Assembly (NCBI GenBank): GCA_036504055.1
Contig: DASXVU010000020.1
Span: 1-64,000, forward strand
DNA length: 64,000 bases
Direction of reading: 5' to 3'
From: Methanomassiliicoccales archaeon
GTDB lineage: Archaea; Thermoplasmatota; Thermoplasmata; Methanomassiliicoccales; UBA472
The position numbers were made by a program, and so were the translations under genes. Below are positions 44,649 to 48,861 of the stretch, one piece after another. The notes beneath the pieces are model-generated. The model was given only the letters and a program-made list of their open reading frames with translations. It was not told the DNA's origin and did not search any database. Numbering within the stretch: the first letter of the stretch is position 1; each line of letters begins with the position of its first letter.

Positions 44649-46268
44649 ATGCAGCAAGTGATCGAGAACGCTAGATCGACGACCGGCACCAAGACGAGGG
44701 TAAGCGACGTCAGTCCGGTCAGTGGAATGTGCCCGATTTGTATAGAGGAATGTGGTGTGCTTTGCGAGGTCGGTAAGTCGGCCTTCCGTGGCAGGGAGGT
44801 TCTTTACCCTATGCCGGAGCATTTCGGCACCAGCACCGCCGCTTCAAACAAGGACTTCGGTCTGGACTATTCTGATTTCCAGATCCTGGCAGAGCTCATC
44901 GGTGCCTATGGAATTGAGGCTAACCCGGACAAGGCTTTCTTCGAGAACGTCAAGATCGAGACGCAGGTCGCGACCCGTTCGAAGAAACCGATCAACCTAA
45001 AGGTCCCGTTCGTCATCGCTGGACTCGGTTCGACAGCGGTCGCCAAGAGGAACTGGGACAGCCTGGCCAAGGGAGCAGCGCTCTCCGGCATCATCGAGAC
45101 AGTGGGAGAGAACGTCTGCGGGATGGACTCCGAATCGACCTACACCAAGGGCAAGGTCGTGAAATCCCCGGACATGGCATACCGTGTGTCTGCCTATCGC
45201 GAGCTCTGGGACGAAAAGTACGGAGATATCGCCGTGCAGACGAACGTTGAGGACCAAAGGGGCGGCGTTGATGATTACGTCCTTTCCAAGCTCGAGGTCA
45301 ACATAATCGAAAGGAAGTGGGGACAGGGTGCCAAGGCCATCGGAGGAGAGGTCAGGCTAGACTCCATCGAAAGGGCGCTCGAGCTCAAGAAGCGCGGATA
45401 TCTGGTGCTCCCGGACCCAGAGGACAAGATGGTGAAGGAGGCGTTCAAGGCCGGAGCCTTCAAGTCCTTTGAGAGGCACAGCCGGGTCGGTTTCCCCGGA
45501 CTGAAGTCGTTCGTCGAGGACGTCGAGTCCCTGAGGGACAAGGGAGCCAAGTACGTGTTCCTGAAGACTGGCGCCTATAGACCGGAGGTCGTCGCCTTTA
45601 CGATGAAGGCCGCCTCGGAGGCCAAGATCGACATGCTCACCTTTGATGGAGCTGGAGGCGGCACCGGCATGTCCCCGGTACCGATGATGAACGAGATGTC
45701 CACACCGACCGTTCACCTGGAGGCCCAAGTCTTGGCATGCGCCCAGATCCTGAAGAAGAAGGGTAAGTTCCTGCCCGACATGGTCATGGCCGGTGGGTTC
45801 GTCAATGAGGGACAGATGTACAAGGCAATGGCGATGAGCAACATCGGCGGCGGCCCATCGATCAAGGCGATCGCGATGGCCCGGGCCCCGATCCTGGCTG
45901 CAATGAAGTCCACGTACTTCGCCAAGATGGCCGAGTCCAAGAGCCTTCCCAAGAGCTTCACCGACATGTACACCTCGGACCCAGCGAACTTCTTCATCAT
46001 GGCGAAGGAGATGGCCAAGGACAAGAGCCTCAAGCTGGGTAAGAACCTCCCATGGGGGGCGGTTGGTCTCCACACCTACCTGGTCGACAGGCTCGGCGTC
46101 GGACTGAAGCAGCTCATGGCCGGATCCAGGAAGTTCAACCTGGAGAACCTGGACCGCTCCGATATTGCCTCCTTGACCCCGTACGCCTCGCAGGTCACTG
46201 GCATAGAGACCTTCGACCAGATGTCGTCAAGGGTCATGCCTGGTATCTTGGAATACTGGGACGAGTGA
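44649..46268 (+). CDS. GltB-like FMN-binding glutamate synthase domain protein
   Basis: 539 residues. The core is the FMN-binding TIM barrel of the glutamate synthase large subunit (DGAGGGTGMSPVPMMNE; MAGGFVNEGQMYKAMAM), but the glutaminase and C-terminal beta-helix domains are missing. A cysteine-rich N-terminus CPICIEECGVLCEVGK could hold an Fe-S cluster, together with barrel cysteines. Archaeal stand-alone proteins of this class are annotated glutamate synthase, but some act as FMN oxidoreductases of unknown substrate. No NADPH-binding partner is adjacent; the nearest GltA/NfnB-like gene is in the hydrogenase operon. Followed by a strong intrinsic terminator. Confidence 0.83.
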   Translation: MQQVIENARSTTGTKTRVSDVSPVSGMCPICIEECGVLCEVGKSAFRGREVLYPMPEHFGTSTAASNKDFGLDYSDFQILAELIGAYGIEANPDKAFFENVKIETQVATRSKKPINLKVPFVIAGLGSTAVAKRNWDSLAKGAALSGIIETVGENVCGMDSESTYTKGKVVKSPDMAYRVSAYRELWDEKYGDIAVQTNVEDQRGGVDDYVLSKLEVNIIERKWGQGAKAIGGEVRLDSIERALELKKRGYLVLPDPEDKMVKEAFKAGAFKSFERHSRVGFPGLKSFVEDVESLRDKGAKYVFLKTGAYRPEVVAFTMKAASEAKIDMLTFDGAGGGTGMSPVPMMNEMSTPTVHLEAQVLACAQILKKKGKFLPDMVMAGGFVNEGQMYKAMAMSNIGGGPSIKAIAMARAPILAAMKSTYFAKMAESKSLPKSFTDMYTSDPANFFIMAKEMAKDKSLKLGKNLPWGAVGLHTYLVDRLGVGLKQLMAGSRKFNLENLDRSDIASLTPYASQVTGIETFDQMSSRVMPGILEYWDE

Positions 46269-46277
46269 ACCAATATG

Positions 46278-46308
46278 AAGGCCGGAGGGACCGGCCTTCC
46301 TTTTTTTT
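46278..46308 (+). terminator. Intrinsic-type terminator after GltB-like gene
   Basis: AAGGCCGG at 46278-46285 pairs perfectly with CCGGCCTT at 46291-46298 (loop AGGGA), and eight T follow at 46301-46308. It starts 10 nt after the stop codon. This is the clearest hairpin-plus-T-run terminator in the window. Confidence 0.85.
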
Positions 46309-46504
46309 CTTGAATGAGGACGTTCTCGTAGGATATCCCTATGAGAAAAAATAGATAATGGACAATTTATTAGCGGGATGGTTTATCCATCCAACCCTTT
46401 TAGAGCCAGATGTACAAATTTGTGTCCTGTTTAATGCGATCGAAACATCCAATTGGGGTCAAAAACTGGAAAAGCATTAATATCGACTAACGCATTGACT
46501 TTTT

Positions 46505-46665
46505 CAACCGGCTCATGGAAAATGAGCTGGAATAAATTAGGGGAACGAAATAGCGGACTTTCTTAGGAGGAGAGGATCGCATAGGAGCGGTGAGCCACCG
46601 GCCCAACGAACTCCAAACGGTTTCAAAACCAAGGTATGGGGTCAATGAATGACCTCTACCTTTTT
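46505..46665 (+). ncRNA. Candidate structured non-coding RNA, unknown class
   Basis: A ~160-nt intergenic segment with the parts of an independent RNA gene. A TATA-like ATTAATAT at ~46477-46484 sits ~25 nt before the proposed 5' end. Hairpins: 46508-46516 with 46522-46530 (9 bp, one G-U); GGAG 46584-46587 with CTCC 46611-46614 enclosing CGGTG/CACCG at 46588-46600; GGTT/AACC at 46619-46630; and a 13-bp terminal stem at 46631-46662 with one bulge running into TTTTT at 46661-46665. No open frame explains it. It does not match tRNA, SRP RNA, RNase P RNA or a riboswitch class I know. The next gene starts ~90 nt downstream with its own TATA-like box. Confidence 0.5.
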
Positions 46666-46755
46666 AGAAATAATATGGACGCTCCCAATTTGGAATTCAT
46701 CCAGAGTACATAGGTTATTTTAATCATGGCATGAATCTTCCTTCAGTGGTCGTTC

Positions 46756-48861
46756 ATGGAGCCCAAGCCGAAATTCTCCAACCATCTTGTGCACGAGAAG
46801 AGTCCCTATCTGATCATGCATTCACATAACCCGGTTGATTGGTATCCCTGGGGAGAGGCAGCTTTCACCGAAGCGAAGCGAACCGGAAAACCGGTCTTCC
46901 TCTCCATCGGTTATTCCGCCTGTCACTGGTGTCATGTCATGGAGAGGGAGTCGTTCGAAGATGAGGATGTGGCCAAGGCATTGAACGAAGGTTACGTGTC
47001 CATCAAGGTGGATAGGGAAGAGCGTCCGGACATCGATGAGCTATACATGAAGGCATGTCAGGCCATGACCGGAGGGGGAGGTTGGCCGTTGACCATCGTG
47101 ATGACGCCGGAGAAGATACCTTTCTTCGCCGCCACCTATATCCCTCGGAACGGCCAATTCGGCATGTCGGACATCATCACCGTGCTCAACGCCATCTCGA
47201 CCGCCTGGAAAGAAGAACAGGGAGAGATCCGATCGATCACCTCTACCATAATGAGGGACATAGCGGCGATGCAGATCGTCAGGCCGGGCGAACCGAGCTT
47301 AAGATATCTGGACGACGCATTTCAAGGTCTGAAGAAGACCTATGAGGAGAAGTTCGGCGGATTCGAGAAGTCACCAAAGTTCCCCATCCCCCACAAGGTC
47401 ATGTTCCTCCTTCGGTACTGGAATGACACCGGCAAAGATGACGCTTTGAAGATGGCCGATTGGACCCTCACCAATATGATGCTCGGAGGGATCCATGACC
47501 ACATAGGAGGAGGATTCCATCGGTATTCCACCGACGGACAATGGATATTGCCTCACTTCGAAAAGATGCTTTATGACCAGGCCCTGATCTGCATGGCCTA
47601 TACTGAGGCGTACCTGGCCACCGGCAAGGATGATTTCAGGAAGGTGGCGGAAGGTATAGTCGAGTATGTTCTGAGGGACCTGGTCTCGGACAGAGGGGCG
47701 TTCTGCGCTTCCGAGGATGCGGACAGCGAGGGCGTGGAGGGCAAGTTCTACACATGGACCAGCATCGAGATCGAGGAGGTGCTCAAGGACCTGAATCCCG
47801 AGGTCTTCATGGCATGCTTTGACGTCCACCCCGAGGGGACCATCGGTTCTGGCAGGGAAGGGGACAGCGATCGAAACCTCCTGCACCTAGTGGCAGACCT
47901 CGCCACCCTGGCCTCCAAGTTCGAGATGAGCCCGGCGCAATTGGATGATTATCTAAGCTCATGCATGGAACGTTTGAGAAGGGTCCGTGAGATGCGTATC
48001 CGTCCAGCCCGCGATGACAAGGTCCTTACGGATTGGAACGGGCTCATGATCGCCGCCTTGGCTAAAGCGGGTAGAGCATTCGATGAGGAGCGTTACCTGC
48101 AGGCGGCAAAGAGGGCGGTGGATTCGATAGAAGGATTCTTGGCGTCGCCGGAGGGCGGCCTATACCACATGTATCGGGACGGTGAGGCCAGGGTGAACGG
48201 CATGCTCTCTGACCATGCCTATTACATCTGGGGGCTCCTGGAGCTTTATCAGGCCACCTTCGAGTATCGATATTTGAACAGAGCGGTCGAATATACCAGG
48301 AGGACCATCGATCTGTTCGGTGACGATAGCGGAGGATTCTACAACTCCATGGCCAAGGACGATCTGGTCATCCTGAGCAAGGAGATCTCGGATGGGGCCA
48401 TGCCTTCGGCGAATTCGGTGATGGTCTATGACCTGGCTATGCTGTCGACGATGATCGATGACCGGAGGATGAAGGAGGCGGCGATGGCCTCCGCCAAATA
48501 CTATGACTTTTACCTTTCCAAGGTACCGGACGCGCTGTCGTTCTTCATGATGGGTCTGAGGATGCTGCTGAGACCGGCCGAGGAGTTGGTCATCGCCGGC
48601 GACCCTATGGACGAACGCACAAGTGCGATGGTCGGGGCTACCAACTCGATCTTCCATCCGTATACAGTCATGATGCTGAATCCAATGCGGGAAGGAAAGA
48701 TGCCCGAGTGCAAGAACCTCTCCAGCCTGAATGATAAGACTCCGATTGGCGGAAAGGCCACTGCCTACCTTTGCCGGAATGGGAGCTGTCTCAAGCCCAT
48801 TCAGGATCTTGACGAGCTCATGGATGCGTTGAGAGCGGCGGTCAAGCCTCATCAGGTGTGA
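46756..48861 (+). CDS. YyaL/SSP411-type thioredoxin-domain and glycosidase-like protein (DUF255)
   Basis: 701 residues. An N-terminal DUF255 thioredoxin-fold domain opens with [18 protein letters not shown] and has the redox motif CHWCHVM near residue 60, then [12 protein letters not shown]. An (alpha/alpha)6 barrel follows, as in N-acylglucosamine epimerase-like proteins ([22 protein letters not shown]). The family is widely conserved but its reaction is not established. Usual length is ~680-700, so this copy is complete. A TATA-like TTATTTTAATC lies at ~46711-46722. Its 3' end overlaps the convergent EcfS gene by 20 bp. Confidence 0.9.

Follow-up and report, generated by a model that had tools for sequence, protein, structure and literature searches.

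In the genome of a Methanomassiliicoccales archaeon (GenBank assembly GCA_036504055.1), a stretch of 64,000 nucleotides on contig DASXVU010000020.1, hereafter the window, carries a predicted small RNA gene, RNA1, which comparison across related genomes marks out as a conserved unit, independent of its neighbours, whose invariant core, AGGAGGAGA, resembles a Shine-Dalgarno sequence and is lodged between hairpins. What would such an RNA do? With a probability of roughly one half, we take it to be a stand-alone regulatory small RNA that pairs through this core, its likeliest partner being a second small RNA, RNA2, for which RNA1 would act as a sponge.

Anatomy of the RNA1 gene

RNA1 lies between a gene for a glutamate-synthase-domain protein and one for a DUF255/thioredoxin-domain protein (Table 1). 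The first of these (stop codon at 46268) is followed directly on its 3′ side by a stem-loop terminator that separates it from RNA1, and this is the "upstream terminator" of the original prediction. The TATA-like box proposed at the same time can be read directly in the sequence, and its spacing is what sets the inferred 5′ end of RNA1. At the other end, the long bulged stem followed by five T that had been described is indeed present. The region from 46486 to 46668 folds at -59.2 kcal/mol, as against -43.6 ± 4.1 for shuffled sequences (z -3.84), and 0 of 200 shuffles folded as well.

The region had been described as free of open reading frames (ORFs), and no ORF of at least 60 amino acids covers it on either strand. 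Frame-breaking indels occur in the RNA1 alignments, and the structure is conserved without a conserved ORF. A small ORF in one relative (G015), in which an ATG follows GGAGG, was rejected as a candidate because it is not conserved. A tRNA/tmRNA search of the RNA1 region returned none. The statement that RNA1 belongs to no recognizable class agrees with a search of Rfam 15 (4227 families), which gave no match at the gathering threshold and only noise at E 10 (sraA, NEAT1_2, ar35); the relatives of RNA1 gave no match either. Rfam coverage of archaeal guide RNAs is patchy, and RNA1 could in principle be a divergent H/ACA or C/D guide, SRP, RNase P or 5S RNA. We hold this to be highly improbable given that nothing rose above noise for RNA1 or for its relatives, that neither conserved C/D boxes nor a 3′ ACA were seen by eye, and that a GGAGGAGA-type core is, to our knowledge, no feature of any of these classes.

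Table 1. Positions of RNA1, its elements and its neighbours in the window, and of the RNA2 loci.
Feature	Position	Strand	Remarks
Glutamate-synthase-domain protein, 539 aa (upstream neighbour)	44649..46268	+	Pfam Glu_synthase PF01645, 4.2e-11
Stem-loop and T-run, terminator of the glutamate-synthase-like gene	46277..46308	+	9-pair stem GAAGGCCGGAGGGACCGGCCTTC, then CTTTTTTTTC
TATA-like box CATTAATATC	46475..46484	+	read directly; ~26 nt before the expected RNA1 start
Predicted small RNA (RNA1), ~160 nt	46503..46665	+	fold z -3.84; homologues in 27 genomes
5′ hairpin CCGGCUCAU/AUGAGCUGG	46508..46530	+	MFE and centroid agree
Core-carrying element/hairpin GCGGACUUUCUUAGGAGGAGAGGAUCGC	46553..46580	+	near-identical in G002, G006 and G010
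14-nt segment UUCUUAGGAGGAGA, perfect complement of RNA2 loop UCUCCUCCUAAGAA	46560..46573	+	RNA2 loop on contig C6 of the same genome
Invariant core AGGAGGAGA	46565..46573	+	alignments A5/A10 and core list
3′ hairpin P2, GGAG/CUCC closing, CGGUG/CACCG inside	46583..46614	+	P2 z-scores, covariation, RNA2 pairing
P2 segment GGUGAGCC, complement of RNA2 GGCUCACC	46589..46596	+	predicted RNA2 pairing
RNA1 terminator: bulged stem GGUA.GGGGUCA/UGACCUC.UACC (46631-46659), then UUUUU (46661-46665)	46631..46665	+	fold
DUF255/thioredoxin-domain protein, 701 aa (downstream neighbour)	46756..48861	+	Pfam PF03190, 5.6e-72
RNA2 in the source genome (G000)	contig C6:34503-34513		locus L188
RNA2 in G006	L310:17650-17725
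RNA2 in G001	L339:12915-12995
Other RNA2 loci	L250, L251, L253-L255, L248, L252, L265, L279, L280, L293-L295

Conservation of RNA1 and independence from its neighbours

Relatives of RNA1 were sought 3′ of the glutamate-synthase gene or 5′ of the DUF255 gene, and then with covariance models; synteny and such models are needed here, as scans for a sequence pattern alone miss most copies. In a DNA search of relatives, the block GCGGA(A)CTTTCTTAGGAGGAGAGGA turned up next to the same gene in three genomes (G002, G006 and G010). In all, RNA1 relatives occur in 27 genomes from two Methanomassiliicoccales families: 15 of the 22 genomes of the window's own family and 12 of the 15 of a sister family, the one that contains Methanomassiliicoccus. 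A phylum-wide scan of 390 genomes yielded no convincing copy beyond these two families. Matches of model R1 in other members of the phylum (G147, G243, G274) have neither the neighbouring genes nor the architecture and were set aside as chance, as was a match inside a coding region (L004). RNA1 was not seen 3′ of the glutamate-synthase gene in families f2, f3 and f5 or in G026, G007 and G017; the surroundings of that gene in ANME-1, Hadesarchaea, Bathyarchaeia and Archaeoglobi yielded no convincing relative either.

The genes beside RNA1 in these relatives are the same glutamate-synthase-like and/or DUF255 genes, and TATA boxes stand at the corresponding place, among them TTTTTATAATGG, TTTATTTAAAAG and GGTTATAAATAAC. 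Since RNA1 sits between both genes and on their strand in most genomes, it might be imagined as a cis element, either an attenuator or riboswitch of DUF255 or a processed 3′ UTR of the glutamate-synthase gene. The neighbours change, however, and this makes such a role very unlikely. Downstream, the place of DUF255 is taken by a hydroxylamine-reductase-like (prismane/hcp-like) gene in G002 and G014 and by a convergent transporter gene in one genus, so that RNA1 is no constant part of a DUF255 5′ leader. Upstream, RNA1 is retained in G014 and G032, where the glutamate-synthase gene was not found beside it, and in G047 it stands 650 bp away from that gene with its TATA box kept. In one genus, moreover, DUF255 has a promoter of its own, a conserved CCTTGAAATAC box between RNA1 and the gene. 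RNA1 is thus best read as a gene rather than a leader or a 3′ UTR, because neither loss of the synthase gene nor replacement of a neighbour removes it; a TATA box together with a terminator or a U/C-rich end, across changing neighbours, points to an independent intergenic transcription unit. At the level of sequence, the original prediction, a structured RNA gene that has a promoter and a terminator to itself, is therefore well borne out: 27 genomes keep it at the corresponding place with a TATA box on its strand, and it persists where a flanking gene was not found (G014, G032) or stands 650 bp away (G047).

Several observations concern the flanking DNA itself. The 650-bp separation in G047 is due to a GC-rich insert of about that length between the glutamate-synthase gene and RNA1 (L116:4108-4830), seen in this genome only. 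In G010 (L026, L006) frame changes together with a TAG in frame break up the glutamate-synthase-like gene, through decay or an assembly error, and the adjacent RNA1 is intact. In G021, G063, G085, G089, G091, G093, G094, G097 and G102 the same frame is listed with one in-frame TGA, which may be assembly noise or may come from matches that extend beyond the stop. Within the window's family, finally, one genus has a conserved leader of some 40 nt, approximately CAAGGTAGATTAYCAAGCAGCTTCGTTAGC, that abuts the DUF255 start codon (L027, L029, L032, L034, L035, L040); it is possibly a regulatory leader.

From 5′ to 3′, the conserved architecture consists of the TATA box, one or two hairpins, the core, the hairpin P2 and a U/C-rich end. 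The sequences of the 5′ hairpins differ completely between genera. The core reads (A/G)GGAGGAGA, mostly AGGAGGAGA, and its GGAGGA is invariant in all 26 aligned sequences. P2 in the relatives is of the general type GGGG..GAGC / GCUC..CCCC. Their 3′ end is a CAAACCnnUUCCAAACC U/C-rich tail, in place of which the source genome has a stem and UUUUU. The four hairpins first proposed are thus essentially right for the source genome, in which the last stem (46631-46659) is private, and only in part general, genera differing in their stem sequences and in how many 5′ hairpins they have. What conservation retains, where it had been asked for as a check, is the 5′ hairpin or hairpins, the core and P2. 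A motif of CAAACCYYTTT type recurs across the order both after stop codons and at the end of RNA1 (e.g., L021-L023, L076); it resembles the signal at which transcription usually ends in these archaea.

Support for the retention of the hairpins is good, while formal covariation support is moderate. Over 24 genomes, the mean fold z was -2.10 for the 60 nt before the core and -2.42 for P2, against +0.13 for upstream control DNA. Within one clade, four of the eight pairs of the 5′ hairpin have changes on both sides, a score reached by 2 of 500 shuffles. For P2, pairing is kept in 78% of cells over 16 sequences as compared with 72% after shuffling, the covariation score again being reached by 2 of 500 shuffles, and in another clade pairing stands at 92.5%. 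The moderate grade arises because plain alignments misplace the helices: whole-family MAFFT alignments ignore them, and both A5 and RNAalifold on A3 give weak covariation.

RNA2 and its complementarity to RNA1

A second place was matched by model R3, at orthologous positions in all six genomes of one genus. It was first taken for a paralogue of RNA1 on the same strand, a view abandoned once its TATA box and U-run had been located on the opposite one. Given that these signals run opposite to the match of R3, and that a separate TATA box serves the neighbouring sensor gene, RNA2 is read as a separate RNA encoded on the opposite strand. The gene downstream of it is egsA (glycerol-1-phosphate dehydrogenase) or a TIM-barrel gene that egsA follows in turn. 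The 16 copies come from the source genome, G006, G001, ten genomes of the sister family and three of a third family, hence from at least three Methanomassiliicoccales families, the third of which is one where RNA1 was not found. A search of Rfam 15 with RNA2 gave no match.

About 28 nt after a TATA box of its own, RNA2 has a long covarying GC stem whose sequence changes fully; it also has a downstream UUCC(A/G)CC motif and, in most copies, a U-run end. Its large loop carries UUCUCCUCC in 16 of 16 copies, an anti-Shine-Dalgarno-like sequence often placed in a small hairpin loop. This is the complement of the RNA1 core, a complementarity that is ascertained rather than independent, since RNA2 was itself detected by resembling or complementing RNA1. 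In the source genome the large loop also presents GGCUCACCCCC.

It is in the source genome that the predicted pairing is most extended, with two blocks, UUCUUAGGAGGAGA against UCUCCUCCUAAGAA and GGUGAGCC against GGCUCACC, a duplex of -47.0 kcal/mol and 28 consecutive paired nucleotides of RNA2. In the whole of that genome, TCTCCTCCTAA has only two exact occurrences, one opposite RNA1 and the other in RNA2. Compared with dinucleotide-shuffled RNA2, the duplex z is -2.6 in this genome and -3.6 to -8.4 in six genomes of one genus, so that complementarity exceeds chance (z -2.6 to -8.4) in 7 of 13 genomes. In the remainder, namely one genus of the sister family (-1.7 to +0.3), G006 (-1.4) and G001 (-1.5), the energy is no better than chance, and only 6-11 contiguous core pairs remain. 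A change of the RNA1 core in G001, GGAGGAAA, has no compensating change in RNA2. We therefore regard RNA1-RNA2 pairing as likely rather than established, in view of this unmatched change, of the duplexes that do not stand out, and of the way in which RNA2 was found.

Could the core have other partners? RNA1 might be a stand-alone small RNA whose GGAGGA pairs with pyrimidine-rich stretches of mRNAs or with the anti-Shine-Dalgarno tail of 16S rRNA, its match to RNA2 being incidental or secondary. The invariant GGAGGA does match the CCUCC of the 16S tail, and several genomes have only a short core match to RNA2. The core continues as GAGA(A), however, where the 16S tail would need GUGA. Core duplexes with RNA2 (-14.7 to -24.8) are also stronger than those with the 16S tail (-11 to -14.5) in all five genomes compared, a comparison made with the textbook archaeal tail in place of one read from the source genome. 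Across the whole genome, near-exact complements of the core show no enrichment (33, against 40 for a control pattern), and the two-block pairing in the source genome and one genus goes beyond shuffles. We consider this alternative rather unlikely. Another reading places a protein where the sponge reading places RNA2: the purine-rich AGGAGGAGA between two hairpins would be recognized by an RNA-binding protein of archaea, and RNA1 would sequester or scaffold that protein. An invariant short purine motif flanked by hairpins conserved in structure and variable in sequence would suit such a site just as well, but the complementary, invariant RNA2 loop would then go unexplained and no protein candidate was found, which leaves this reading improbable.

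A putative sponge and known regulatory RNAs

In the favoured reading, RNA1 works by base-pairing through its core. The CUCCUCC loop of RNA2 would lower the translation of mRNAs by pairing with their ribosome-binding sites, and RNA1, mimicking such a site, would titrate RNA2 as a decoy or sponge; the direction of regulation between the two is a guess. RNA2 is the more widespread, reaching a family where RNA1 was not found, and RNA1 would therefore be an antagonist added later. More tentatively still, RNA1 as a mimic of the Shine-Dalgarno sequence and RNA2 as a mimic of the 16S anti-Shine-Dalgarno may form a dedicated pair of small RNA and antagonist setting the translation of Shine-Dalgarno-led mRNAs in methylotrophic methanogens. 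At the least, the two are conserved RNA genes with a concrete and mutually testable pairing hypothesis. Should RNA1 indeed titrate an anti-Shine-Dalgarno small RNA, Archaea would have a sponge RNA, a kind for which our limited literature search turned up no archaeal report, and the control of translation initiation in these methanogens would be opened to experiment.

The bacterial sponge or anti-sRNA RNAs, such as SroC and 3′ETS-leuZ, carry a conserved segment that complements the seed of another small RNA. RNA1 would resemble them in having a segment of this kind and in the titration predicted from it. It differs in being archaeal, in that Hfq is not implicated, in having its own gene rather than being a processing product, and in that its function is a prediction. 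Closer to home, Methanosarcina mazei has two small RNAs, sRNA154 (through its loop 2) and sRNA41, that mask ribosome-binding sites (PMC5867862). They are intergenic, independently transcribed small RNAs of methanogens that act by base-pairing, as RNA1 and RNA2 are predicted to be, and the CUCCUCC loop of RNA2 would mask in the same manner. They belong to another order, however, and RNA1 bears the Shine-Dalgarno-like strand and not the anti-Shine-Dalgarno one. A further M. mazei RNA, sRNA162, acts in trans through separate pairing domains, and its described target is an mRNA (PMC3510493); RNA1 would likewise be an archaeal small RNA acting in trans through separate pairing domains, and differs in that the partner proposed for it is another small RNA. 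Few archaeal small RNAs have known partners (PMC5867862), and our limited literature search found none in Methanomassiliicoccales; neither RNA1 nor RNA2 is in Rfam or was found in that search. The archaeal intergenic small RNA is a known kind, to which RNA1 and RNA2 add uncatalogued conserved genes, and it is the reading of their loops as a pair that goes further.
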